Of a DNA stretch of 64,000 bases, positions 37,884 to 60,584 are shown in pieces (positions within the stretch are counted from its first letter, which is position 1; each line of letters opens with the position of its first letter). The position numbers were made by a program, and so were the translations under genes. The notes beneath the pieces are model-generated. The model did not search any database. It saw nothing but the letters and a program-made list of their open reading frames with translations, and had not been told where the DNA came from. The stretch comes from Limnohabitans sp. Hippo3 (GTDB taxonomy: Bacteria > Pseudomonadota > Gammaproteobacteria > Burkholderiales > Burkholderiaceae_C). The stretch lies in contig NZ_NESF01000002.1 of assembly GCF_003063665.1 (NCBI RefSeq), positions 62,001 through 126,000 of the forward strand. The letters are read 5' to 3'.

Positions 37884-39218
37884 TCAATCCTTCAAAGGCA
37901 CCACCCGACTGGCCGGGAAAGTCAGCATGAACTTGGAGCCTTTGCCCACCTGGCTTTCAATGCGCAACTCACCCCCATGGCGTTGCACCACATGCTTGGC
38001 AATGGCCAAGCCCAAACCTGTGCCACCCGTCTCGCGTGAGCGGCTGCGGTCGACCCTGTAAAAGCGCTCAGAAAGTCGCGGCAAATGTTCAGGGGCAATG
38101 CCCGGACCGGTATCGGTCACGGAAAATGTCGCGCCCTCGGGGGTCCTGATCCAGGATGCATGGACCGTGCCGCCCGCAGGGGTGTAGCGCACGGCATTGC
38201 TGACCAAATTCGAGATCGCACTGAACAACTCGGAGCGCACACCCAGCAAGGCCCAATCCGCCTGGGTGTCAAAATTCAGCACATGGACGGGACCACGCTC
38301 GTCCCCCTCTTGACCCGAGAGAACCGCCGACAAAGCCGCCGCATCGGCGGCAACTTGCGTCATCAACTCTGGCAAAGGCACCTGCTCGTGGTTACCTGGC
38401 GGCGAGCTGCCTTCCAGTTGTGACAGGGTCAACAAATCCGCCACCAGGCTTTGCATGCGCGCGGCCTGCACCGACATCAGATGCAAGTAATTCAGGCGCT
38501 CTTGCTCATTCAGAGGAATGGTTTGCAGCGTTTCCACAAATCCACTCAACACGGTCAAGGGCGTGCGAATTTCGTGCGACACATTGGCCACAAAATCGCG
38601 GCGCATGGCATCGGCCAAGGTCACCGAGGTGATGTCCCGACTGAGCAACAAAAGCTGCGCCTCACCATAGGCATGCAGCTGAACTGAGAGCTTCGGTGCT
38701 TGAATCAGCGAGTTGGACCGACCATCGATGATGACTTCTGCATCGTGCTGGCCTTGCGCAAAATACTTGGAAAAGACCGGATCACGCAACAGATGAACAA
38801 TGTGCTGTTTGACATCGCGCTTGGGGTCCAGTCCAAGGTGGTTGCTGGCCGTGGTATTGCACCATTCAATGCGGCCCTCGGCGTCAAGCAAGGTCACGCC
38901 GTTGGGAGAAGCCTGAATGGCCTGGAGAAAATACTGCAGGCGCTGTTCGCTGGTGAGCAACAGTTTGTCGTTCTGACGCAATTGACGCTGGATGCGCTGC
39001 GCAATTTCTGCCCACACACCCTTCCAGGGCAATTCAGTGCGCCAATCGGGCTGAGACAACCACAGCTCCAGCCGCCGGATTTTCCAAATTTGTTGAAGCA
39101 GAATCCACAGCAACAAGGCGCATGCCGCGAGTGCCGCCCAAAGCGGCCCACCCCAGAACCAGGCAGGCGCTGCCGCCAGCAGCACCAGCATCAGGATTTC
39201 AAGAACAGGAACCCACAT
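37884..39218 (-). CDS. phoR: Phosphate regulon sensor kinase PhoR
   Basis: 444 aa. Two N-terminal helices (about 5-43), a PAS domain (ASPNGVTLLDAEGRIEWCN), the phospho-acceptor H215 in VSHEIRTPLT, and HATPase with NLVSNAVRYTP, DTGPGI and GTGLGLAI. It phosphorylates PhoB under Pi limitation and is held in check through PhoU and PstB. Last gene of the pstSCAB-phoU-phoB-phoR run, 3 bp after phoB. Confidence 0.96.
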   Translation of the reverse strand: MWVPVLEILMLVLLAAAPAWFWGGPLWAALAACALLLWILLQQIWKIRRLELWLSQPDWRTELPWKGVWAEIAQRIQRQLRQNDKLLLTSEQRLQYFLQAIQASPNGVTLLDAEGRIEWCNTTASNHLGLDPKRDVKQHIVHLLRDPVFSKYFAQGQHDAEVIIDGRSNSLIQAPKLSVQLHAYGEAQLLLLSRDITSVTLADAMRRDFVANVSHEIRTPLTVLSGFVETLQTIPLNEQERLNYLHLMSVQAARMQSLVADLLTLSQLEGSSPPGNHEQVPLPELMTQVAADAAALSAVLSGQEGDERGPVHVLNFDTQADWALLGVRSELFSAISNLVSNAVRYTPAGGTVHASWIRTPEGATFSVTDTGPGIAPEHLPRLSERFYRVDRSRSRETGGTGLGLAIAKHVVQRHGGELRIESQVGKGSKFMLTFPASRVVPLKD

Positions 39219-39221
39219 CGC

Positions 39222-39917
39222 TCACGCTGCAGGTGCAGCAGTCAAGCGGTAGCCTGCGCCCCGCACAGTCTCGATCATGCTACCGGCATCGCCCAGCGAT
39301 TCGCGCAGACGCTTGACGTGCACATCCACGGTACGCTCTTCGATGTAGACATGATCGCCCCAGACCTTGTCGAGCAGCATGCCCCGGGTGTGTACCCGCT
39401 CTGGGTGCCGCATCATGTATTGCAGCAATTTGAACTCTGTCGGCCCGACCTTCAGGGGCTTGTCCTGCCAGCTCACCCGGTAGGTGTCGGCATCGAGTTG
39501 CAGATCGCCAATCTTCACGGCACCACCTGCAGACTCGGGCACACGCCGACGCAAGACCGCACGGATGCGCGCCAGCAATTCACGCGGTGAAAACGGCTTG
39601 ACGATGTAATCGTCCGCACCCGCGTCCAGGCCGGCCACGCGATCAGCCTCATCACCACGGGCTGTGAGCATGAGGATGGGCACGGTCTTTGTTCTTGCAG
39701 ACGCTCTCCAGCGGCGCGCCAGGGTCAGTCCGCTTTCGCCGGGCAGCATCCAATCGAGCAAGATGACATCCGGCAGGATCTCATCGAGCTCACGTTGCGC
39801 CGATTCCGCGTCCATCGCCCAGACTGGCTGGAAACCGTTGTGTCGCAAATTCACCGAAATCAATTCGGCAATCGACGCTTCATCCTCGACGATCAGAATT
39901 CTCGGCAAGCTTCTCAT
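39222..39917 (-). CDS. phoB: Phosphate regulon response regulator PhoB
   Basis: 231 aa. Receiver with D55 in LLDWMLPG, T in LMLTARG and K in DDYIVKPF; the winged helix recognition segment is EERTVDVHVKRLRESL. PhoB binds Pho boxes (7-bp direct repeats at 11-bp period), several of which I see in this window. Its start overlaps the phoU stop by four bases. Confidence 0.97.
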   Translation of the reverse strand: MRSLPRILIVEDEASIAELISVNLRHNGFQPVWAMDAESAQRELDEILPDVILLDWMLPGESGLTLARRWRASARTKTVPILMLTARGDEADRVAGLDAGADDYIVKPFSPRELLARIRAVLRRRVPESAGGAVKIGDLQLDADTYRVSWQDKPLKVGPTEFKLLQYMMRHPERVHTRGMLLDKVWGDHVYIEERTVDVHVKRLRESLGDAGSMIETVRGAGYRLTAAPAA

Positions 39918-44798: not shown

Positions 44799-47024
44799 TC
44801 ACAAGCCAATCACGCCACCATCCTTGCGCGTGATGACGATGGTGGCCGAACGTGGGCGACCGGCCACGCCATAACCCTGATTACCTGGCCAGACGCTCTG
44901 TGGCGCTGCGCCTGAGGAAAGGGGCTTGGACAATTCGCCGGGGTGCTGGATGTTGACAAACAAGGTACGGCCATCTGGCGTTTCGGTGATGCCCGTCACT
45001 TCAGCACCGGCTGGGGCCACCAGGAAGCGGCGCAATTGGGCCTCACCCAAAGCGGCACCGAGGAAAGTTTCCTGCGTGCCGGTCTGCTCGACACCGCCCA
45101 CCACCATCTTGTTTTTCACGGTGACTTTGCCACCGTCGCCCACCTGGCCGGGAATAGCGGCCAGCATCATGCAGTTGGTTTCGTCGGTGAAGGCCCCATC
45201 GTCGGTCTGGATCCAGCAAATGCCGGTGGCTTTGCTGAACCACAGGCCGTCGGGCGAAGAGAAAGAATTCTTGGCGGTCAGGCCCGACAAATTGGCATCA
45301 CCCATATCCTCTTCGGCACCAAAGAGGAAAATGTCCCATGCAAAAGTTTTGGCGGTGGCCGTCTGCCCGGCCTCTTTGAAACGGATGATGTGCCCATTGG
45401 GGTTGCCTGCGATTTTCTTGCCGTCCATGTCCATGTAGGCGCGAGGGTTGGCGGCATCGGTTTTTCCAGGGGTGCGGTTGGCCGCGCTGTTGTTGGTCAA
45501 CGCAAAATAAATTTCACCATTGCGGTGGTTGACAGCGCCCCACTCCGGGCGGTCCATCTTGGTCGCACCTACGGCATCGGCGGCATGGCGGGCATGGACC
45601 AACACATCCCCCTGGCTGGCGAATGGGTAGGCGCTGTGCTTGGCGATACGTGGGTCGGCGATGGTCAGCTCCAGCCATTCGCCCTGGCCCGAAGCATCAA
45701 AGCGGGCGGCATAGAGCTTGCCCTCGCTCAGGTACTTGTCGCCAGCGGCCATGCCACCACCCACGTCACGTGGGTCCCACACGGCAGTGGTCACAAATTT
45801 GTAGATGTATTCGTTGCGCGAGTCGCAGCCCATGTAAAACGCCAAAGGCTCGCCCGCCTTGGGCACACCGCAGACGGCCGCCTCATGGGCGAAACGGCCC
45901 ATGGCCACGCGCTTGGCCGGTGTGGAGTTGGGAGCCAGGGGGTCGATCTCCACGTTGAAACCAAAGGTGTTGGCTTCGTTGCGGAAATCCTTTTCGGCAT
46001 TCGCTCCCACGGCCGCGAGGTTCCAGCGGGCAAAGCGGTCATCGGTGGACGACACCGTATGCCAGCCCTGGCTGACTGACTTGGTCGAACCGGCAGCAGG
46101 CGCGGCAGCGGCCACACCGTAGCGCTTGCGCGAGGCCAACTCTTTCGCTGTCAAGGCTAAGCCTTCGCCAGTGGTCTGGAAGTAATAGGCCCAATTTTCT
46201 TCGCAGCCCAAATACGTGCCCCACGGCGTTTTGCCATGGCCGCAGTTGTTGAGTGTGCCGCGAGCCATGGCCCCGGCCGTGTCCCAGCGGGTCACCATCA
46301 GACTGCGAATCTGCTCGATCGAAGCGCGGGGGCCGCTGATACGCACAGGCGTTTGTGCGGTGATACGGCGGTTCAGGGGCGAATCTTGCTTGATTCGCCA
46401 GCCTTGCGGCGTTTTCACGATCTCGACCACAGAGACGCCGTGGTGGTTGATTTCCTTGAGCACTTCCAACTCAGGGCGGACGCCCAAATCCCAGTCGCCA
46501 AATTGGGTAAATTTCTTGCCGCTGACCTTGTTGGAAGTTTGGCCATTGGGGTGCATGAAGTGCGCATCGGCCGAGCTTTCGTGGTTCACGCACAGCACGG
46601 CGCGGCCCGTGTCCTTCTCGAAATAGCGGCCATTGGCGTCGATGTAATAAATGTCCATGCCATCGTGGTGATCGCCAATGCGGCGCGACCAGTCGTCCGA
46701 CTCAAGGCCGCGGTTGGAATAGGCCGCCAAGGCCGAATCGAGCGCATCGCCAGTGGCGTGCAGCACGCTGTATTGGTAGCCCGGCGGCAAGATCACGTTG
46801 TCGAGCAGGCTTTTTTCCACAGCGGCAAAGCCCAAGGCTTTGGGCGCAGCAGGCGCACCTGTGGTCAAGCTGGCGCAGCCGGGCAGCATGGCCAGCCCTG
46901 CCAAACCCAAACCACCACGCAGCAAACCCCGGCGTGCGGGGTTTTGCAGGGACTGGCTCAGGACGTCCTGAAAGTGGGGGTTGTCAGAGGTGTTGCAAAT
47001 CGGGTCAAGGTCGTGGTGAGACAT
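44799..47024 (-). CDS. phoX: PhoX-family alkaline phosphatase (Tat-exported)
   Basis: 741 aa, DUF839/PhoX family. PhoX is a Ca2+/Fe-dependent monomeric phosphatase that releases Pi from phosphomonoesters outside the cytoplasm. The N-terminus has a twin-arginine motif (RRGLLRGG, R31-R32) and LPGC (C50), a possible lipid anchor. Active-site-type segments include VNHESS, LNNCGHGKTPWGTYLGCEENW, FNVEIDP, GRFAHEAA and FSSPDGLWF. It lies directly upstream of pstS on the same strand, with its own terminator, and divergent from gap-arsJ. A strong Pho-box array precedes it. Confidence 0.95.
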   Translation of the reverse strand: MSHHDLDPICNTSDNPHFQDVLSQSLQNPARRGLLRGGLGLAGLAMLPGCASLTTGAPAAPKALGFAAVEKSLLDNVILPPGYQYSVLHATGDALDSALAAYSNRGLESDDWSRRIGDHHDGMDIYYIDANGRYFEKDTGRAVLCVNHESSADAHFMHPNGQTSNKVSGKKFTQFGDWDLGVRPELEVLKEINHHGVSVVEIVKTPQGWRIKQDSPLNRRITAQTPVRISGPRASIEQIRSLMVTRWDTAGAMARGTLNNCGHGKTPWGTYLGCEENWAYYFQTTGEGLALTAKELASRKRYGVAAAAPAAGSTKSVSQGWHTVSSTDDRFARWNLAAVGANAEKDFRNEANTFGFNVEIDPLAPNSTPAKRVAMGRFAHEAAVCGVPKAGEPLAFYMGCDSRNEYIYKFVTTAVWDPRDVGGGMAAGDKYLSEGKLYAARFDASGQGEWLELTIADPRIAKHSAYPFASQGDVLVHARHAADAVGATKMDRPEWGAVNHRNGEIYFALTNNSAANRTPGKTDAANPRAYMDMDGKKIAGNPNGHIIRFKEAGQTATAKTFAWDIFLFGAEEDMGDANLSGLTAKNSFSSPDGLWFSKATGICWIQTDDGAFTDETNCMMLAAIPGQVGDGGKVTVKNKMVVGGVEQTGTQETFLGAALGEAQLRRFLVAPAGAEVTGITETPDGRTLFVNIQHPGELSKPLSSGAAPQSVWPGNQGYGVAGRPRSATIVITRKDGGVIGL

Positions 47025-47064
47025 GTGAAGCTCCTGGGGAAAAGTCCGATTGAAGGGCTTTCAC

Positions 47065-47104
47065 GTGACAGTTTGATGGCGAAAATCTGAAGTTTGAATG
47101 ACAG
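47065..47104 (-). promoter_or_regulatory. Candidate Pho-box array of phoX
   Basis: Minus strand: CTGTCAT (47104-47098) and CTGTCAC (47071-47065), both exact consensus half-sites, start exactly 33 bp apart, that is three 11-bp turns; the two intervening registers are weaker. It ends 40 bp before the phoX ATG. Confidence 0.75.
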
Positions 47105-47130
47105 ATCCTCGGCCGGCTGCCTCTGAAATC

Positions 47131-47148
47131 TTGTCATGAATGCGTCAC
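47131..47148 (+). promoter_or_regulatory. Candidate Pho box of gap-arsJ-arsR
   Basis: TTGTCAT-GAAT-GCGTCAC on the plus strand: 14 of 18 positions equal the E. coli consensus CTGTCATAAATCTGTCAC. It ends 55 bp before the gap ATG and is 26 bp from the phoX array on the other strand. Confidence 0.72.
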
Positions 47149-47203
47149 AAATGCATGGCAAAGTACCGAAAATCACATTTCCAGAAGCATTGAAAGATCA
47201 GCC

Positions 47204-48247
47204 ATGAAAATCGGTATCAACGGTATGGGCCGCATTGGCCGCTTGGCCTTGCGTGCAGCCATGGGTGCTGCCGAGCGCCCCTCGGACGACCCCCGCGCAG
47301 GCAACCGCCTGGAGGTGGTGCACGTCAACGAACTCAAAGGCGGCGCAGCCGCCACAGCGCATTTGCTCGCGTTTGACAGCGTACAGGGCAAATGGCGCGA
47401 GCGCATTGAAGACGAAAGTGACACCCAGATCCGCATCGGAGATCGCACCCTTGGCTTCTCGTCGCATGCCAATCCGGCCGACATCCCTTGGGGCGAGATG
47501 GGGGTGGATGTGGTGCTGGAATGCACGGGCAAGTTTTTGACCCCCGAAACGATTCAGGGCCACCTGGACCGGGGCGCCAAGCGCGTCATTGTGGCCGCGC
47601 CTGTCAAGGTGGGCGATGTGCTGAACATCGTGGTCGGCATCAACCACACTCTCTACAACCCGGCCAAGGACCGCATCGTCACGGCCGCATCGTGCACCAC
47701 CAATTGCCTGGCCCCGGTGGTCAAAGTCGTGCACGAAGCCATTGGCATCCGCCACGGTCAGATCACCACCATCCACGACCCGACCAACACCAACCTGGTG
47801 GTGGACGCGCCGCACAAAGACCTGCGCCGCGCCCGCAGCGCCATGATGAGCCTGGCCCCCACCACCACGGGCAGCGCCACCGCCATTGCCTTGATCTACC
47901 CCGAACTCAAAGGCAAGCTCAACGGCCACGCGGTGCGTGCCCCGGTGCTCAACGCATCGCTGACCGACTGCGTGTTCGAGATGAAGCGCGAAACCAGCGC
48001 CGAAGAGGTCAACGCCTTGTTTGCTGCGGCGGCGCAAGGCCCATTGGCCGGCATCCTAGGTTATGAAACGCGCCCCTTGGTCAGCGTGGATTACGCCCGC
48101 GACACGCGCAGCGCGATCGTGGACGCGCTGTCTACCCTGGTGACCGACGGCACACTGCTCAAGGTCTACGCCTGGTACGACAACGAAATGGGCTATGCCT
48201 GCCGCATGGTGGACCTAGCTTGCCACATGAACGAAGTCGGCATCTGA
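47204..48247 (+). CDS. gap: ArsJ-associated glyceraldehyde-3-phosphate dehydrogenase
   Basis: 347 aa. Rossmann start [13 protein letters not shown], catalytic C164 in [11 protein letters not shown], and the C-terminal [14 protein letters not shown]. With arsenate in place of phosphate the enzyme makes 1-arseno-3-phosphoglycerate, which ArsJ exports (the established Gap/ArsJ pathway). The arsJ start is 1 bp after this stop, so this copy is dedicated to arsenic and not the glycolytic one. The N-terminal insertion [14 protein letters not shown] is typical of the arsenic-linked branch as I recall it. Confidence 0.92.
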
Positions 48248-48248
48248 G

Positions 48249-49535
48249 ATGAACGCGGCTGAGCGCAACGACGGCGGTATCACCGCCGCAGAACGTCAAT
48301 ACGGCATCGTGACCGCCGCCTATTGGGGCTTCACCCTGACCGACGGCGCTTTGCGCATGTTGGTGCTGCTGCACTTTTACAAGCTGGGTTACTCCCCTTT
48401 CACGCTGGCCTTTTTGTTCTTGCTCTACGAAGGCGCGGGTGTGCTGGCCAACCTGATCGGCGGCTGGCTGGCCACACGTTTTGGCATCGCCCGCATGCTC
48501 ACCGTGGGGGTGGTCACGCAGATCATCGGCTTTGGTTTGCTCTCGGCCTTGCAGCCCGAGTGGACGGCGACCATGTCGGTGGCTTGGGTTGTGCTGGCGC
48601 AGGGCGTGTGTGGCGTGGCCAAAGACCTGACCAAAACCGCCAGCAAATCGGCCATCAAGATCACTCAGGCGCAAGCCAAAGACCAAGGCAACGGCCAACT
48701 CTTCAAGTGGGTGGCCTGGTTCACGGGCAGCAAAAACGCCATGAAGGGCTTTGGCTTTTTTCTAGGCGGTTTGCTGCTGGAGACGCTGGGTTTCCAGGGG
48801 TCGCTGTGGGCCATGTCGGGTCTCCTGGCTTTGGTGCTGATCGGGGTGGTGACGAGCTTGCCGCCCATGATGGGTAAGAGCAAGCCATCGGGCTCGGCCA
48901 AAGAGTTGTTCGCCAAAAACGCAGGCATCAACGCACTGGCCGCCGCCCGCGTGGCTTTGTTTGGGGCGCGTGACGTGTGGTTTGTGGTGGGCGTGCCGGT
49001 GTTTTTGTATTCGGTGGGCTGGACTTTCACCATGGTGGGCGGCTTTTTGGCGACCTGGACCATTGGCTATGGCCTGGTGCAAGCACTGGCCCCGCAGCTG
49101 GTGCGCCGCAGCGCCGACGGCCTGAGCCGCGAAGTGCCTGCAGCCCGCTGGTGGTCGGCAGTCCTCACGCTCATTCCGTTGGGCATCGCCGCTGCGCTTT
49201 GGCTGCAAGCACCGCAGCTGCAATGGTGGGTGGTCGGTGGCCTGAGCCTGTTCGGCTTTGCCTTTGCCATCAACTCGTCGGTGCACAGTTATTTGGTGCT
49301 GGCCTATGCAGGCTCTGAAAAAGCGGCCGAAGACGTGGGCTTTTACTACGCCGCCAATGCACTCGGCCGCTTCATGGGCACGCTGCTGTCGGGCTTGCTC
49401 TACCAATGGGGCGGGCTGCTGTATGCCCTCTTGGGATCGGCGCTGATGCTGCTGCTGTGCTGGCTGACCACACTGCGCCTGCCCTTGGGCTTGCTTGAAA
49501 ACACCACCCCTTCAGAAAAGACAGGCACCCCATGA
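48249..49535 (+). CDS. arsJ: Organoarsenical efflux permease ArsJ
   Basis: 428-aa MFS protein, twelve helices, beginning TAAERQYGIVTAAYWGFTLTDGALRMLVLLHF, a hallmark of ArsJ. Other segments: KDLTKTASKSAIK, SKNAMKGFGFFLGG, ARDVWFVVGVPVFLY and SVHSYLVLAYA. It expels 1-arseno-3-phosphoglycerate, so arsenate is detoxified without reduction to arsenite. It overlaps arsR by four bases. Confidence 0.95.
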   Translation: MNAAERNDGGITAAERQYGIVTAAYWGFTLTDGALRMLVLLHFYKLGYSPFTLAFLFLLYEGAGVLANLIGGWLATRFGIARMLTVGVVTQIIGFGLLSALQPEWTATMSVAWVVLAQGVCGVAKDLTKTASKSAIKITQAQAKDQGNGQLFKWVAWFTGSKNAMKGFGFFLGGLLLETLGFQGSLWAMSGLLALVLIGVVTSLPPMMGKSKPSGSAKELFAKNAGINALAAARVALFGARDVWFVVGVPVFLYSVGWTFTMVGGFLATWTIGYGLVQALAPQLVRRSADGLSREVPAARWWSAVLTLIPLGIAAALWLQAPQLQWWVVGGLSLFGFAFAINSSVHSYLVLAYAGSEKAAEDVGFYYAANALGRFMGTLLSGLLYQWGGLLYALLGSALMLLLCWLTTLRLPLGLLENTTPSEKTGTP

Positions 49536-49915
49536 CCACCGACACCGTTTTGAACGCCATGGACGAAGACCTCGCCGTCAAGGCGCTGGCGGCTTTGGCA
49601 CAAACCTCTCGCTTGCGCGTGTTCCGCGCCATCGTGGGCGCAGGCCCTGAAGGCATGCAACCGGGCCAGTTGTCGCAAGCGCTGGCGGTGCCTGCCAACA
49701 CGCTGTCCTTTCACCTCAAGGAACTACACCATGCGGGCCTGGTGAGCGTGCAACGCGAAGGCCGGTTCATGCGTTACCGCGCCGACATGCCGACCATGCA
49801 AAACCTGGTCGGCTTCTTGACCGACCACTGCTGCCAAGGTGTGCCTTGTGTCGACATGCCTTGTGTGGCCTGCCATGACAAGCCGTCATCAAACGTTCAT
49901 GCAGACGTCACATAA
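49532..49915 (+). CDS. arsR: ArsR-family repressor with C-terminal cysteine cluster
   Basis: 127 aa. Winged helix with LAVPANTLSFHLKELHHAGLVSVQREGRFMRY as recognition part. The C-terminus is cysteine-rich: C100, C101, C106, C111, C114, arranged like the As(III) sites of Acidithiobacillus-type ArsR rather than the N-terminal CVC of E. coli. Last gene of gap-arsJ-arsR. No ArsR operator was evident before gap, so its target is uncertain. Confidence 0.9.
   Translation: MTTDTVLNAMDEDLAVKALAALAQTSRLRVFRAIVGAGPEGMQPGQLSQALAVPANTLSFHLKELHHAGLVSVQREGRFMRYRADMPTMQNLVGFLTDHCCQGVPCVDMPCVACHDKPSSNVHADVT
49883..49911 (+). promoter_or_regulatory. Candidate Pho-box array of ppx inside arsR
   Basis: CCGTCAT-CAAA-CGTTCAT-GCAG-ACGTCAC: three 7-mers at exact 11-bp spacing, 6, 5 and 5 of 7 positions matching the half-site. 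It lies in the last codons of arsR and is followed at once by CATAAT, a possible -10. It ends 36 bp before the ppx ATG. Confidence 0.55.
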
Positions 49916-54803: not shown

Positions 54804-55265
54804 TCACAGACGCTCTGGGGCGGTCACGGTCAGCAAAACGGTTTGATCCTGACCATCACGGCTGCGCCTGCGCAACCACCATACGGCCCCCTTGCGCACC
54901 GCGCACGCCGCAGTGGGCATGCGCAGCAACTGTGAAATCACCGCCCCCAGTCCGGGCTGGTGCCCAACCAGCAAAACCGGGTACCTGGCATCGGGCCAAC
55001 CCGCTGTTTCCAGAATATCCTCCACCGAAGCGCCCGGTGACAAGGCATCGCGAACTTTGTATTTACGCCCCAGGGCGCGCACCGTCTGCTCAGCCCTGAC
55101 TGCAGGGCTGCTCAAAATGCGCGTGCCTTCTGGAAGCTGACTTTCGAGCCAGACCGCCATCCGCTCAGCCTGCTTGCGGCCACGCGGCGTCAGAGCCCTT
55201 TGCAAGTCATCTTCTGCGGGTTCGGCCTCGTGGGCTTCGGCGTGACGCCACAAAATCAAGTCCAT
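54804..55265 (-). CDS. sixA: Phosphohistidine phosphatase SixA
   Basis: 153-aa histidine phosphatase. The catalytic RHG-type motif is WRHAEA (H8); second histidine in LVGHQPGLG. It removes phosphate from phosphohistidine proteins such as PTS components. It starts 5 bp after ppk and is very likely in the same transcript. Confidence 0.9.
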   Translation of the reverse strand: MDLILWRHAEAHEAEPAEDDLQRALTPRGRKQAERMAVWLESQLPEGTRILSSPAVRAEQTVRALGRKYKVRDALSPGASVEDILETAGWPDARYPVLLVGHQPGLGAVISQLLRMPTAACAVRKGAVWWLRRRSRDGQDQTVLLTVTAPERL

Positions 55266-55270
55266 CGCCC

Positions 55271-57355
55271 TCAGTCCCCTTTGGTAGACGCCCCGTAGCG
55301 CAGCATCAAGGCGTTTTGTGCTCCGTGTCCCGGTGCCGTCAGACCGACCCGGTGGTATTGACCGTCTGCCGCCAAATCCCAGGCGTCACGGCCATCATGC
55401 AGGTAGGCGATCAGGCATTCGTCGATGATGCGCTGACGCAAAACCGGGTCGGTCACAGGCCAGGCCAGCTCGATCCGGCGTGTCATGTTTCGACTCATCC
55501 AGTCGGCGCTGGACAAATACAGCGACTCTTCCTGACCGGCGCAGAAATAAAACACACGGGAATGCTCCAGAAAGCGGCCAATGACCGAGCGCACGCGGAT
55601 GTTTTCGCTCAAACCCGCCACACGCGCAGGCAACATGCAAGCGCCCCGCACGATCAAGTCAATCTTCGCACCCTTTTGCCCGGCTTCCAGCAAAGCCTCG
55701 ATCAGCGGTTGGTCGGTCAGGGCATTCATCTTGATGACAATGCGTGCAAAGTCACCACGCGCCGCTGCTTCGCCCACCGCCGCAATGCGCGATTGCAAGT
55801 CGCTGTGCAGCTGAAAAGGCGCGACCAGCAAGCGCTTCATTTTGGGCAGGCGGCTTTGGCTGGCCAAGTGACCAAACAATTGATCCATGTCGGATGTGAT
55901 GCCAGCGTCTGCCGTGAGGTAGCTGATGTCGGTGTACAGCGCTGCGGTGCGGCGGTTGTAATTGCCGGTCGACAAATGTCCGTAGCGCTTGAGCGAGCGG
56001 CCTTCGCGGCGAGTCACCAAAAGCATCTTGGCGTGCGTCTTGAGGCCGACAATGCCGTACACCACCTGCACCCCAATCGATTCGAGCTGCTCTGCCCAGT
56101 TGATGTTGGCTTCTTCGTCAAATCGGGCTTTGAGCTCCACCACAGCTGTGACTTCCTTGCCCCGACGCACCGCCTCGCGCAGCAAATCCATCATCGTGGG
56201 ATCGCTGCCTGCTCGGTAAATCGTTTGCTTGATGGCCAGCACGTTCGGGTCCATCACGGCTTCGCGCAAGAATGCCAAGACGCCGTCGAAACTCTCAAAG
56301 GGCTGGTGGATCATCACATCACCCGTTTTGAGGCGCGCAAAGATCGAGCCGTGCTGCGGCACCTGCGCAGGGAAACTCGCCTTGTAGGGCGGGAACAGCA
56401 ACTCCGGCGCATCGATCAAATCGATCAACTGCATCAGACGCACCAGATTGACCGGACCGTTGACCCGAAACACCGAGGCTTCGGGGAGTTGGAATTCCTT
56501 GCGCAAAAATTCTGCCAAACGTGGCGAGCAATTGGCCGAAACCTCCAGCCGGACCGCCTGACCGTAGTGGCGATGCTGCAAACCCTGCCGCAGAGCCATG
56601 CGCAAATTGGCAATCTCGTCTTCGTCAACCGCCAGCTCGGAGTTGCGCGTCACCCGAAACTGTGAGAACTGCCCCACTTCACGGCCCGGAAACAATTCGG
56701 CCAAATGCGCACGGATCACACTGGACAGCATGACAAAGGCGGTGGTGCCGTCACACACCCGCTCGGGCAGTGGAATGAGGCGGGGCAAAACGCGGGGCAC
56801 TTTGACAATCGCGATCTCATTGGAGCGACCAAAGGCGTCCTTGCCCGACAGCTGAACGATGAAATTCAGAGACTTGTTGGCCACCTGCGGGAACGGGTGC
56901 GCCGGGTCCAACCCCACTGGCACCAGCAAAGGCTGGACTTCGCGTTGAAAATAACTGCGCACCCATTGTCGCTGGGCCGCATTGCGCTCGCCGTGCGACA
57001 AGATCCGGTAACCCTTGCGCTGCAAAGTGGGCAACAAGTCGTCGTTGTACAGGGCGTATTGCCGCGCCACCATGGCGCTGATTTTTTCAGCCAAGGCGGC
57101 AAGACTGGCTTCTGTGTATTCCCCTGACTTCAGGCCTTGCAGGCTGCCCATCACATGGGGCTCTGCCCGTACCTCAAAAAACTCGTCCAGGTTGGAAGAC
57201 ACGATACACAAATAGCGCAAACGCTCGAGCACTGGCACTTCCGGGCGGTGAGCCCAATCCAGCACCCGCTCGTTGAAGGACAAGATGCTCTGATCGCGGT
57301 CGAGCAAGGCTGGCCGCTCGTTTGCAAAGGAAGTCTCGACTTTTGAATGAACCAT
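55271..57355 (-). CDS. ppk: Polyphosphate kinase 1
   Basis: 694 aa, full-length PPK1 with N, H, C1 and C2 domains: RDQSILSFNERVLDWA near the start, IYRAGSDPTMMDLL, the autophosphorylated histidine in GLKTHAKMLLV, GHLSTGNYN and SSADWMSRNMTRRIE. It makes polyphosphate from ATP reversibly. A Pho-box-like repeat precedes it, and the Agt-like gene ends 69 bp upstream. Confidence 0.97.
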   Translation of the reverse strand: MVHSKVETSFANERPALLDRDQSILSFNERVLDWAHRPEVPVLERLRYLCIVSSNLDEFFEVRAEPHVMGSLQGLKSGEYTEASLAALAEKISAMVARQYALYNDDLLPTLQRKGYRILSHGERNAAQRQWVRSYFQREVQPLLVPVGLDPAHPFPQVANKSLNFIVQLSGKDAFGRSNEIAIVKVPRVLPRLIPLPERVCDGTTAFVMLSSVIRAHLAELFPGREVGQFSQFRVTRNSELAVDEDEIANLRMALRQGLQHRHYGQAVRLEVSANCSPRLAEFLRKEFQLPEASVFRVNGPVNLVRLMQLIDLIDAPELLFPPYKASFPAQVPQHGSIFARLKTGDVMIHQPFESFDGVLAFLREAVMDPNVLAIKQTIYRAGSDPTMMDLLREAVRRGKEVTAVVELKARFDEEANINWAEQLESIGVQVVYGIVGLKTHAKMLLVTRREGRSLKRYGHLSTGNYNRRTAALYTDISYLTADAGITSDMDQLFGHLASQSRLPKMKRLLVAPFQLHSDLQSRIAAVGEAAARGDFARIVIKMNALTDQPLIEALLEAGQKGAKIDLIVRGACMLPARVAGLSENIRVRSVIGRFLEHSRVFYFCAGQEESLYLSSADWMSRNMTRRIELAWPVTDPVLRQRIIDECLIAYLHDGRDAWDLAADGQYHRVGLTAPGHGAQNALMLRYGASTKGD

Positions 57356-57397: not shown

Positions 57398-57415
57398 GTG
57401 TCAATTTGATGACAA
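57398..57415 (-). promoter_or_regulatory. Candidate Pho box of ppk-sixA
   Basis: Minus strand TTGTCAT-CAAA-TTGACAC: 13 of 18 positions equal the Pho-box consensus with exact 11-bp spacing. It ends 42 bp before the ppk ATG, in the 69-bp gap after the glycosyltransferase gene. Confidence 0.68.
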
Positions 57416-57424
57416 CACCGTGAA

Positions 57425-58471
57425 TCAGCCGCCCGTGCTTGCAGCGCCCGATACCGGCACCAGATGGGACACGAACAACTCGACCGTCTTGGGCCAGGCG
57501 AAGGCCTCAGCCCGCTGTCGGCACTCGGCCCTTGGAAGGGTCAGGCATTGGCGAAACGCCTCGGCCAGGTCTTCCGACAGCACGCCCCCCATCGTCTGGC
57601 CTTCGGTATGACCGAGCACTTGCAAAGGGCCATCGACCGGGTATGCGGCCACAGGGGTGCCGCAAGCCATGGCTTCGAGCATGACCAAGCCAAAGGTTTC
57701 ATTGCGCGAAGGAAAGACAAACACATCGGCTGCAGCATAGACCTTGGCCAACTGTTGGCGCGGCAACACTCCCATCCAGACCACATTCGGGTAACGCGCC
57801 TTGAGCTGCGCTTCCAAAGGCCCCACACCACACACGATGCGGGTTCCATCCAGCTTCAAGTCCAGAAACGCATCGATGTTTTTCTCGTAAGAAACTCGCC
57901 CGACAAACAAGGCGTAGGGGCGCGGAAACCCTTCCAATTCCGGCATATCCAGCGGCTCGGCGTGGTGGTCAAACAAATCCAGATCCACCCCGTGGGTCCA
58001 CGGCTTGAGTGATTGGAAGCCACGGCTTTTCAGCATGTTCAGTACGCCTTGGGTCGGCACCATCACCCCCGAAGACGGGCGGTGAAAATGGCGAAACAGG
58101 CCGTAGCCCAGAAACAAGGGCACGCGCAGCGCTGCTTTCAGGATTTCTGGAAACTTGGTGTGGAAGGCGGTGGTGAATTGCCAGCCTTTTTTCAGGCAAT
58201 GCTTGCGCGCTGCCCAGCCCAAAGGACCTTCTGTGGCGATGTGAACCGCATCGGGCTGCAATGTGTCCAGCACTTTGGCCAGCGCTTTGTAAGGGCGCAC
58301 CGCCAGATCAATGCCCGCATAACCCGGGCAGGGGCGGTTGCGGAACTGTCCGGGGTGGATCACCGTCACTTCGACGTCCCCCATGCTCAGGGCTTGCACC
58401 AGCTCGTGCAGCGTGGTCACCACGCCATTGACCTGAGGGTGCCAGGCATCGGTGATGAGGGCGAGCTTCAT
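57425..58471 (-). CDS. GT4 glycosyltransferase, Agt/MgtA-like (glycolipid synthesis)
   Basis: 348 aa. GT-B fold: N-terminal ITDAWHPQVNGVVTTLHEL (acceptor side) and AFHTKFPEIL; C-terminal donor domain with FVGRVSYEKNIDAFL, GVGPLEAQLKARYP and the E-x7-E motif FPSRNETFGLVMLEAMACG. The start, ATG 58471, overlaps the previous stop by four bases. Together with the PlcP-like gene this resembles the plcP-agt pair that replaces phospholipids by glycosyl-diacylglycerols under phosphate limitation. Mannosyltransferase activity is an alternative. Confidence 0.8.
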   Translation of the reverse strand: MKLALITDAWHPQVNGVVTTLHELVQALSMGDVEVTVIHPGQFRNRPCPGYAGIDLAVRPYKALAKVLDTLQPDAVHIATEGPLGWAARKHCLKKGWQFTTAFHTKFPEILKAALRVPLFLGYGLFRHFHRPSSGVMVPTQGVLNMLKSRGFQSLKPWTHGVDLDLFDHHAEPLDMPELEGFPRPYALFVGRVSYEKNIDAFLDLKLDGTRIVCGVGPLEAQLKARYPNVVWMGVLPRQQLAKVYAAADVFVFPSRNETFGLVMLEAMACGTPVAAYPVDGPLQVLGHTEGQTMGGVLSEDLAEAFRQCLTLPRAECRQRAEAFAWPKTVELFVSHLVPVSGAASTGG

Positions 58472-59388
58472 GCGGGCACCACCTGAGCTGCAGCCCCCCG
58501 TTGGCTCACCACCGCATGCGAACCCCAATGGACGATTTCGAGATGCCCGTCGGCATGCTCCACCAAGGCGGTCCGGCTTTCTACCCAATCGCCATCGTTG
58601 CAGTACAAGGTGCCATTCACATTCCGTATTTCTGCATGGTGGATGTGCCCGCACACCACGCCATCAAAGCCTCGGCGCTTGGCTTCGTGCGCTACGGCCA
58701 CTTCGAAATCGCTGATGAAGTTCACCGCCTTCTTGACCTTGAGCTTGAGGTACGCGGACAAAGACCAGTAGGGCCGCCCCACACGGGCCCTGAAGCTGTT
58801 CAGGTGCCGGTTGATTCGGAGGGTCAACTCGTACAACCAGTCACCCACATACGCGAGCCACTTGGCGCACTGGATCACGCCATCAAAATGGTCTCCATGC
58901 ACCACCCACAACTTGAGCCCCTGAGCGGTGGTGTGGGTCGTTTCATGCACCACCTCCACGCCGCCAAAAGCATGGCCCACAAAATGCCGGGCAAACTCGT
59001 CGTGGTTACCAGGCACATAGACCACGCGGCAACCTTTGCGCGCCCTGCGCAACAGTTTCTGCACCACATCGTTGTGACTTTGCGGCCAGAACCAGCGCCT
59101 GCGCAGCTGCCATCCGTCGACAATGTCACCCACCAAATACAGCACATCACTCGGGTGGTGCTTCAAAAAGTCGAGCAAGGCCTCGGCCTGAAATCCCGGT
59201 GTGCCGATGTGCAGGTCTGAAATGAAAATCGCCCTCAAACGAGGGCGGTCTGCAGCGTCGTCATCCTCGTCCTGTGCGGACGGGGACGACACATGGACGG
59301 GTGAGCCATGCACCCCATCCTGCGCCAGACTGGCGTCAAAGGTTTTCAGCAGCAGCGCGTGCTGCAAGGAGGTTGACGACACAGTCAT
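58468..59388 (-). CDS. Calcineurin-like metallophosphoesterase, PlcP-like
   Basis: 306 aa. All metallophosphoesterase motifs are present: SDLHIG (D58, H60), GDIVDGW (D88), GNHDE (N128, H129), VHGDHFD (H164) and CGHIHH (247-251). The DGWQLRRRWFWPQSHNDVVQKLLRRARKG region is that of the UDP-2,3-diacylglucosamine diphosphatase-like COG2908 group to which PlcP phospholipase C belongs. The N-terminal 50 residues are an Asp-rich extra segment. The overlap with olsB and the glycosyltransferase favours PlcP over LpxH. A lipid A role cannot be excluded. Confidence 0.8.
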   Translation of the reverse strand: MTVSSTSLQHALLLKTFDASLAQDGVHGSPVHVSSPSAQDEDDDAADRPRLRAIFISDLHIGTPGFQAEALLDFLKHHPSDVLYLVGDIVDGWQLRRRWFWPQSHNDVVQKLLRRARKGCRVVYVPGNHDEFARHFVGHAFGGVEVVHETTHTTAQGLKLWVVHGDHFDGVIQCAKWLAYVGDWLYELTLRINRHLNSFRARVGRPYWSLSAYLKLKVKKAVNFISDFEVAVAHEAKRRGFDGVVCGHIHHAEIRNVNGTLYCNDGDWVESRTALVEHADGHLEIVHWGSHAVVSQRGAAAQVVPA

Positions 59389-60230
59389 CTGACAGCCGCT
59401 GAAAAATGCTTGCAGTAACGCGCTGGCAAGTCTGCGGTGCACATCATCATCGGCAAATCGGCCGTGTTGAAATCCGGGTCCCAGGCGGGCGCACCCAGCA
59501 CCTTGGCACCCAAGCGCAGATAGCCCTTGATCAGCGCGGGCGGCTCGATCGGCAAGTTGCTGTCCAGCTCATCGATGGGCAATGGCAAACGCGGCCGGAC
59601 ATGGTATTGGATATCGGCCAGATGGCTCTGACGCAACTGGTTCCAGATGCTGGCTGCGGCATCACCCGTCACCACACCGTTGTGGAGCATGGGAATACTG
59701 GCGCAACCGATCATGGTGTCCAGGCGGTTGCGGTCCATGAATTCAAACAAAGCCCCCCACAGGGCCATGATGACGCCACCCTGGCGGTGCTCGGCGTGCA
59801 CGCAACTGCGGCCCAACTCCACCATGCGTTGGCGCATGTCGCGCAGACGGGTCAGGTCGAATTCGGTGTCGCTGTAGGTGCTGCCCACGCGTTTGGCCTG
59901 GGCCGGCGTGAGTACACGGTAGGTGCCAATCACCAAGCCCGACTCGCCGTGTCGGACCAGCAAATGCTCGCAGTAATCGTCGAACAGATCGATGTCATGG
60001 CCGGGCACCTGGGTCGACAAGCGTGCGCCCATTTCAGTGCCGAAAACATCAAACCTCAGTTTTTGTGCTTCGCGCACTTCGTCTTGATGTTTTGCCCAAG
60101 TGACGTGAATAGCATTTTGGGCACGTCGAGGCAGGAAATCCACAGGGGTTTGGACCTGCGCCGGATGAAGTAACCCCCTGGGCAAACTCACCGGGGACAA
60201 CGCGAACGTGGGGTTCGGCAACTCTTTCAT
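59385..60230 (-). CDS. olsB: GNAT-like N-acyltransferase, OlsB type (ornithine lipid synthesis)
   Basis: 281 aa, Acetyltransf_5/OlsB family. Signatures: EAQKLRFDVFGTEMGARL, ELGRSCVHAEHRQGGVIMALW, GCASIPM and the C-terminal KGYLRLGAKVLGAPAWDPDFNTADLP. OlsB transfers a 3-hydroxyacyl chain from ACP to ornithine, the first step to phosphorus-free ornithine lipids; olsA is not in the window. ATG 60230 has AAAGGAG 8 bases upstream. First gene of the olsB-plcP-agt operon. Confidence 0.85.
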   Translation of the reverse strand: MKELPNPTFALSPVSLPRGLLHPAQVQTPVDFLPRRAQNAIHVTWAKHQDEVREAQKLRFDVFGTEMGARLSTQVPGHDIDLFDDYCEHLLVRHGESGLVIGTYRVLTPAQAKRVGSTYSDTEFDLTRLRDMRQRMVELGRSCVHAEHRQGGVIMALWGALFEFMDRNRLDTMIGCASIPMLHNGVVTGDAAASIWNQLRQSHLADIQYHVRPRLPLPIDELDSNLPIEPPALIKGYLRLGAKVLGAPAWDPDFNTADLPMMMCTADLPARYCKHFSAAVR

Positions 60231-60275
60231 GACCAGTTCTCCTTTGGATCAATGCAGCCATGATCCAAAAGCGAA

Positions 60276-60315
60276 ATGACATGAAAAAGTCAATGGCGTG
60301 AATTCTTCGTGACGC
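60276..60315 (-). promoter_or_regulatory. Candidate Pho-box array of the olsB operon
   Basis: Minus strand units at exact 11-bp spacing: GCGTCAC, AATTCAC, TTGACTT, ATGTCAT (5, 4, 4 and 6 of 7 half-site positions). The first-to-last spacing of 33 bp equals that at phoX. It ends 45 bp before the olsB ATG. Individual units are weak, so this needs testing. Confidence 0.5.
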
Positions 60316-60347: not shown

Positions 60348-60584
60348 TCAATGCGCTCGCAAGGCCTTGTTGAGCTGATCGACCTGGTGCGTCCAGTCGG
60401 AGTCCTGTTGCCAAGTTTCTCGCAAGAAGTTGGCTTGGGCCACTGTCCAAAAAGCAGCGTCGGCCAAGGCGATATCGCCCGACAAGGGGCTGTGCGCCCG
60501 AATGAACTGCGCAATGCTGCGCGAATCACAAGGCAAACCCAGCTGCGCAAACAACTCATGAAACGGGTGGTGAACGGGGTCCAT
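60348..60584 (-). CDS. DUF2789 protein
   Basis: 78 aa. MDPVHHPFHELFAQLGLP and IAQFIRAHSPL...LADAAFWTVAQANFLRE match the DUF2789 family, small cytoplasmic helical proteins of unknown function. ATG 60584 has a strong GAGGAGGT. It follows phaC by 13 bp and is probably co-transcribed with it. Confidence 0.85.
   Translation of the reverse strand: MDPVHHPFHELFAQLGLPCDSRSIAQFIRAHSPLSGDIALADAAFWTVAQANFLRETWQQDSDWTHQVDQLNKALRAH

Follow-up and report, generated by a model that had tools for sequence, protein, structure and literature searches.

A probable phosphate-starvation gene cluster for membrane lipid replacement in the freshwater genus Limnohabitans

Bacteria from the sea, from soil and from the clinic are those in which phosphate-stress lipid remodelling has been studied best. 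The genus Limnohabitans belongs to the freshwater plankton, and lakes are often phosphorus-limited. A stretch of 64,000 nucleotides from the 2.99 Mb genome of Limnohabitans sp. Hippo3 (contig NZ_NESF01000002.1, positions 62,001 to 126,000; hereafter the window) raises the question of whether genes for two lipid replacement strategies and for polyphosphate are joined in one phosphate-regulated unit. The genes concerned lie on the minus strand and encode, in order, an olsB-type N-acyltransferase for the first step of ornithine lipid synthesis (59385-60230, 281 amino acids), a plcP-type metallophosphoesterase predicted to convert phospholipid to diacylglycerol (58468-59388, 306 amino acids), and an agt1-type GT4 diacylglycerol glycosyltransferase (57425-58471, 348 amino acids). 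A sequence-only reading had described three genes overlapping by 4 bp each, with ppk nearby, and the DNA agrees: an ATGA overlap occurs at each junction (olsB/plcP at 59388-59385, plcP/glycosyltransferase at 58471-58468), and ppk1, for polyphosphate kinase 1 (55271-57355, minus strand), follows downstream after a gap of 69 bp. The ppk1 product scored 1042 bits with the NCBIfam model PRK05443.1-2 (cut-off 691), and the gene is the last member of a conserved cluster. Within 7.8 kb scanned, no terminator-like site was seen at either junction of the three genes or in the 69-bp gap ahead of ppk1; the scan gave 12 such sites in all, against 8.4 +- 3.1 in shuffled sequence. The cluster is quite probably, on the sequence comparisons given below, a phosphate-starvation operon for membrane lipid replacement.

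The metallophosphoesterase matched the Pfam families Metallophos_2 (49 bits) and Metallophos (42 bits), both above cut-off. It was 52% identical to a PlcP-like protein of a Sinorhizobium meliloti record and 56% identical to that of a Pseudomonas aeruginosa record, and residues D58, H60, D88, N128, H129, H164, H248 and H250 were invariant in eight aligned sequences. Public records label such proteins 'UDP-2,3-diacylglucosamine diphosphatase', and the window protein gave weak matches of 34 and 38 bits to LpxH models, as might be expected if it were a second LpxH-type enzyme or acted on other nucleotide sugars, with the glycosyltransferase serving a surface polysaccharide. This alternative is extremely improbable. 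The score with the LpxH model TIGR01854 was 33.9 bits, short of the cut-off of 190.35, whereas a better LpxH candidate is encoded elsewhere in the same genome (G000:C1:86068-86703) and scored 180 bits, just below the cut-off and typical of the genus, in which LpxH candidates range from 166 to 192 bits. In a FastTree phylogeny, 47 PlcP-type sequences, those of P. aeruginosa and S. meliloti among them, did not mix with 20 LpxH sequences of the order Burkholderiales, a set from which the LpxH candidate of the window genome was left out. The window protein lay 1.5 substitutions per site from both named PlcP proteins and 5.4 from the nearest LpxH, across a separating branch of 3.5 substitutions per site. 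The basal node of the PlcP set was weakly supported (0.39), which leaves the rooting point unsettled; the separation of PlcP from LpxH is nonetheless clear. An LpxH or lipid A identity was rejected on the TIGR01854 score, the tree and the separate LpxH candidate. By these comparisons the product of 58468-59388 is PlcP-type and not LpxH, as the sequence-only reading had it; placement among LpxH enzymes, which that reading had named as one ground for refutation, did not occur. A search of solved-structure sequences with PlcP and OlsB found no match at E values of 0.01 and 0.1. Record CP090106.1 (loci L171 and L172), labelled S. meliloti pSymB, spans 3.7 Mb and carries mutS and lspA; it looks like a mislabelled chromosome.

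Which glycolipid would the third enzyme make? The 57425-58471 protein matched Glycos_transf_1 (81 bits) and Glyco_transf_4 (65 bits), both above cut-off, and was 46% identical to a glycosyltransferase linked to plcP in P. aeruginosa and 31% identical to an Agt2-like one. A midpoint-rooted tree of 46 sequences placed it in a clade of 32 members (support 0.93) that includes the plcP-linked P. aeruginosa enzyme and excludes the Agt2-type paralogs. A second glycosyltransferase found in other Limnohabitans grouped with another, Agt2-like P. aeruginosa enzyme (support 1.0, 11 members), whose gene adjoins plcR and a gene for a phosphocholine-specific phospholipase C. From gene order, we take these P. 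aeruginosa plasmid copies to be PA3218/Agt1 and PA0842/Agt2. The available portion of PMC8528852 gives both tags with their functions: Agt1 accepts uridine diphosphate (UDP)-glucose as its sole donor and forms monoglucosyl-diacylglycerol (MGDG), and Agt2 forms glucuronosyl-diacylglycerol (GADG) from UDP-glucuronic acid and uses UDP-glucose to some extent. The tree makes the window enzyme Agt1-type, in keeping with the diacylglycerol glycosyltransferase proposed for it earlier; an identity as a surface polysaccharide glycosyltransferase was dropped on the same tree.

The window genome gave no Agt match besides the cluster's own at E<=1e-30, so no agt2, and neither a UDP-glucose dehydrogenase match nor a PF03721 match of the class near 220 bits. 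Its PF03721 matches were one above the cut-off, a TviB-type protein (L194, G000:C14; 616 bits against a cut-off of 592), which is a UDP-N-acetylglucosamine C-6 dehydrogenase, and one short match below it. The contig bearing the TviB-type gene also carries other glycosyltransferase genes. Because agt2 and a UDP-glucose dehydrogenase match are both lacking, glucosyl- is predicted over glucuronosyl-diacylglycerol, and the window strain is predicted to make the former plus ornithine lipid. The earlier glycolipid proposal is thereby narrowed: the Agt type stands, and the donor is most likely UDP-glucose and not UDP-glucuronate. The same cluster might instead make GADG or a mixture if the enzyme accepted UDP-glucuronate from another source, and according to the available text of PMC4796936 the plcP-linked Agt of Pelagibacter does give both MGDG and GADG in Escherichia coli. 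For the window strain this is unlikely, since its enzyme groups with Agt1 and not Agt2, its genome holds only the TviB-type and the short PF03721 match, and a ugd-type gene adjoins agt2 in all six Agt2 loci examined.

Those six loci (L174-L178 and L181, from Limnohabitans relatives) contain a second Pho-linked cassette of ugd-type, lplT-type and agt2 genes. In each of them both companion genes stand beside agt2, a PF03721 match of about 220 bits was obtained, and Pho-box-like sites occur at the 5' end of agt2. LplT was read from the starts of open reading frames. At L176, the one locus to which family models were applied, LplT scored 358 bits (cut-off 297), and TuaD, a UDP-glucose dehydrogenase model with a cut-off of 700, gave the ugd-type protein 475 bits. 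By eye, a gene for a PhoR-like kinase stands immediately before ugd at L175 and L178 and one gene away at L176; the stretches from the other three loci showed none. The cassette is accompanied by a DUF962-like gene of divergent orientation, recognised by eye; in several loci psd is nearby.

The protein encoded at 59385-60230 matched PF13444 (Acetyltransf_5) with 116 bits, above cut-off, and was 30% identical to an OlsB-like protein of the S. meliloti record (E 2e-32). Among 14 other genomes of the order with OlsB, drawn from a set of 60 with a fifteenth (G058, a weak OlsB match) left out, eight have an OlsA-type gene as the immediate neighbour of its relative, which is in keeping with the earlier OlsB-type assignment. 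In Limnohabitans the olsA candidate is unlinked to olsB. The best one in the window genome, G000:C12:176654-177394, scored 130 bits with the OlsA model (cut-off 300), and no Pho-box-like site above threshold was found in a 5-kb stretch around it. It is a candidate partner for the window OlsB and is unproven. A comparable division is described in the available text of PMC11828411 for Acinetobacter baumannii, in which olsB has a Pho box and olsA is not phosphate-responsive.

Does the arrangement extend beyond one strain? Thirty-six genomes of the genus were surveyed, the window's included, and two (G005 and G024, cut by contig ends) were set aside, leaving 34. OlsB, PlcP and Agt1 occur together in 20 of these, one of which (G029) has an in-frame stop in agt1. 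Six have OlsB and PlcP without Agt1; four have OlsB followed by ppk1, without PlcP or Agt; three have none of OlsB, PlcP and Agt1. In the remaining genome, G031, PlcP and Agt1 are accompanied by a 27-residue remnant of olsB. That locus (L180) comes from an assembly of seven contigs and 100% completeness, reads plcP-agt1-ppk1 and has the first 27 residues of olsB still recognisable; the remnant is a probable recent loss. The order of the genes is also more than a chance one: at 25 of 29 OlsB loci retrieved from other Limnohabitans genomes, plcP comes after olsB inside the retrieved stretch. All 27 genomes with plcP carry agt1, agt2 or both (14 both, seven Agt1 only, six Agt2 only), compared with none of the seven without plcP (matches at E<=1e-30; Fisher 1.9e-7, uncorrected for ancestry). 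Co-occurrence of plcP with a diacylglycerol-type glycosyltransferase is thus directly supported, and it also counts against the LpxH-type alternative. The gene identities have direct support as well, from families, trees and synteny.

A wider sample consisted of the 80 named loci nearest to the window PlcP, the best 80 of at least 580; it is not random, and 13 of its loci have short flanks. In it, a script found olsB directly before plcP in 28 loci, to which inspection by eye added L107; Agt1 adjoins plcP in 41, ppk1 lies no more than 1.8 kb downstream from plcP in 23, and 27 have no olsB, Agt1 or ppk1 neighbour. Loci with olsB and plcP include Limnohabitans, Acidovorax, Curvibacter, Polaromonas and Tepidicella, some strains being without certain modules; in Limnohabitans sp. 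15K (L091), for one, agt1 is missing from the cluster. Loci examined from Burkholderia, Paraburkholderia, Caballeronia, Cupriavidus and Chromobacterium have plcP-agt without an adjoining olsB, and those from Variovorax have plcP with none of olsB, Agt1 and ppk1 beside it. The sequence-only reading had singled out both strategies in one coupled operon; the arrangement is real, but it is common to other Comamonadaceae and not peculiar to the window. In 150 genomes of the order, OlsB was found in 100, PlcP in 70 and both in 57 (Fisher 5e-4). The two genes lie within 10 kb of each other in 13 of the 57, the window genome among them, and within 3 kb in eight; random placement in a 3-Mb genome would give about 0.4 of 57 within 10 kb.

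Such gene order might reflect no more than neighbours kept by descent within one family, without functional meaning, and the named cases with olsB directly before plcP do all belong to Comamonadaceae or to unclassified Burkholderiales or betaproteobacterial metagenome-assembled genomes. This explanation appears highly unlikely in view of the several differing olsB-plcP arrangements in the order: besides OlsB-PlcP-Agt, there is PlcP-Agt-OlsB with a divergent OlsA-type gene (G208, G252), and in G055 an Agt2-type glycosyltransferase with PlcP faces OlsB-OlsA. On a plasmid of the alphaproteobacterium Microvirga sp. VF16 (L173), olsB is likewise found together with ppk1 and a fragment of a plcP-like frame, which argues against descent within one family and suggests that the olsB-plcP-ppk1 association reaches beyond Burkholderiales.

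Is the cluster under phosphate control? Pho-box-like sites were scored by the published consensus CTGTCATNNNNCTGTCAT, with ad hoc weights. A putative Pho box before ppk1, TTGTCATCAAATTGACAC (57398-57415, minus strand), ties with a site at 47131 for the best score in the window; other top-scoring sites lie around phoX, and several Pho-box-like sites fall between phoX and the GAPDH gene (47065-47161). Before olsB, a putative tandem Pho box was read by eye at 60276-60315 on the minus strand, with four 7-bp units at 11-bp spacing (GCGTCAC, AATTCAC, TTGACTT and ATGTCAT). When 17 upstream regions were aligned, 16 of them picked by hand among those scored and the other being the window's, the GTCA and TTCA/TTAA columns of the first two units were kept best and the later units less so. 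In a control with random windows of the same locus, the best 18-mer ranked in the top 5% at 21 of 61 loci for olsB and 20 of 32 for ppk1, compared with 18 of 89 for plcP, 6 of 54 for agt and 0 of 2 for phaC; the loci are related, hence not independent. An earlier shuffle control (p<=0.05 in 46 of 62 olsB regions, the window's counted twice, and in 27 of 34 for ppk1) proved lenient. Putative Pho-box-like sites thus appear to precede ppk1, where the site is good, and olsB, where it is imperfect. The Pho genes near which the cluster had been placed are also present in the window: a PhoX gene (44799-47024), a PhoR-type kinase gene (37884-39218) and a PhoB-type response regulator gene (39222-39917), together with pst and phoU genes recognised by eye only.

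By analogy with characterised relatives, from which we infer reactions, products and regulation, the cluster would work as follows. Low phosphate would activate PhoB, which would bind the sites before olsB and ppk1. PlcP would remove the phosphate head group of phospholipids to give diacylglycerol, and the Agt1-type glycosyltransferase would join this to glucose as monoglucosyl-diacylglycerol. OlsB would N-acylate ornithine, the OlsA-type acyltransferase at G000:C12:176654-177394, apparently not Pho-controlled, would finish the ornithine lipid, and PPK1 would handle the cellular polyphosphate pool. What points to a possible role for ppk1 in lipid remodelling is its linkage to the other genes. 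A broader proposal, offered tentatively as one possibility, is that a single Pho program governs a modular unit for recycling phosphorus, in which PlcP strips phospholipids, OlsB and Agt lipids replace them, freed phosphorus is fed or buffered through polyphosphate by PPK1, and exchangeable modules, Agt1 with neutral glucose and Agt2-Ugd with acidic glucuronate, set the surface charge of the strain.

Several observations weigh against a phosphate-starvation operon of this composition. Of the seven genomes without plcP, five are less than 90% complete, only G018 and G020 being above that value, and the genus counts are uncorrected for shared ancestry. Tree placement covers only six of the 22 Agt2-type matches; the others were assigned on score (139-159 bits). 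Both genomes that were set aside, G005 and G024, gave no plcP match and carry Agt2, one of them together with Agt1. The imperfect olsB Pho box passed the stricter control at only the 21 of 61 loci given above, and the two products of the Pelagibacter enzyme make the head group uncertain. The remaining points concern ornithine. With the two NCBIfam OlsB models, whose names suggest Rhodobacter and Brucella types, the window protein scored 149 and 141 bits, under cut-offs of 350 and 320; because these were missed, the gene is called olsB-type, and its reading rests on the other evidence. The OlsA candidate occurs in 34 of the 36 genus genomes, including all three without olsB, and is therefore not pathway-specific; it groups with three olsB-adjacent OlsA proteins at a support of only 0.77-0.83. 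These scores, the retention of an OlsA-type gene where olsB is absent and the lack of a linked olsA would agree with an OlsB that makes another N-acyl amino acid, or the lyso-lipid only. That outcome is distinctly unlikely, given the OlsA-type neighbour in eight of 14 genomes of the order, a score of only 17 bits with the GlsB model, and 45% identity of the window protein to a Streptomyces homologue. Streptomyces ornithine lipid requires olsB according to the available text of PMC4686642, whose S. coelicolor protein was not the one compared with the window's.

Other genes flank the cluster. A histidine phosphatase gene, SixA-like by eye (54804-55265, minus strand; PF00300, 36.8 bits), starts 5 bp after ppk1, and a DUF2789 gene (60348-60584, minus strand; 99.9 bits) lies between phaC and olsB. 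In the region 44799-49915, a GAPDH gene, an MFS gene and a small gene judged ArsR-like by eye run divergently from phoX, an arrangement that recalls arsenate detoxification.

The preferred reading, a phosphate-starvation operon for lipid replacement, draws on systems already described. In the plcP-agt operons of Pelagibacter, Erythrobacter, P. aeruginosa and Methylosinus, PlcP is likewise directly followed by an Agt-type glycosyltransferase, with a Pho box in the promoter in reported cases; in Limnohabitans, by contrast, olsB precedes plcP in an overlapping unit and ppk1 follows. The olsB-plcP-agt-ppk1 order is not among the plcP context types described in section 13 of PMC4796936. With the olsBA ornithine lipid operon the cluster shares an OlsB family member, but its olsB stands apart from the OlsA-type gene and is joined to plcP-agt-ppk1. 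Like P. aeruginosa, Limnohabitans has both glycosyltransferase types, Agt1 beside plcP and Agt2 elsewhere; unlike there, agt2 is found with ugd- and lplT-type genes in the six loci. Burkholderia and Acinetobacter, too, have a Pho box predicted upstream of olsB, in many or diverse strains, and for them the available portions of the reports describe no plcP-agt coupling. Ornithine lipid and plcP-agt glycolipid are already known in one organism, Methylosinus, from the available text of PMC9239053. In the accessible portions of the open-licence literature, no report of an olsB-plcP-agt cluster or of the ppk1 link was found. The enzyme functions are already known, and the fused olsB-plcP-agt1(-ppk1) arrangement looks new; new too is that agt1 and agt2-ugd replace each other among strains of one genus, always in company with plcP.

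For the biology of Limnohabitans, the variation is useful in itself. Genomes with all modules, without agt1, without plcP-agt, and lacking both olsB and plcP occur in one genus, so the costs and benefits of these lipids could be compared directly. The split between strains with Agt1 only and strains with Agt2-Ugd predicts neutral as opposed to acidic surface lipids. With ppk1 linked to the other genes, it can further be asked whether phosphorus taken from the membrane may be moved into polyphosphate.

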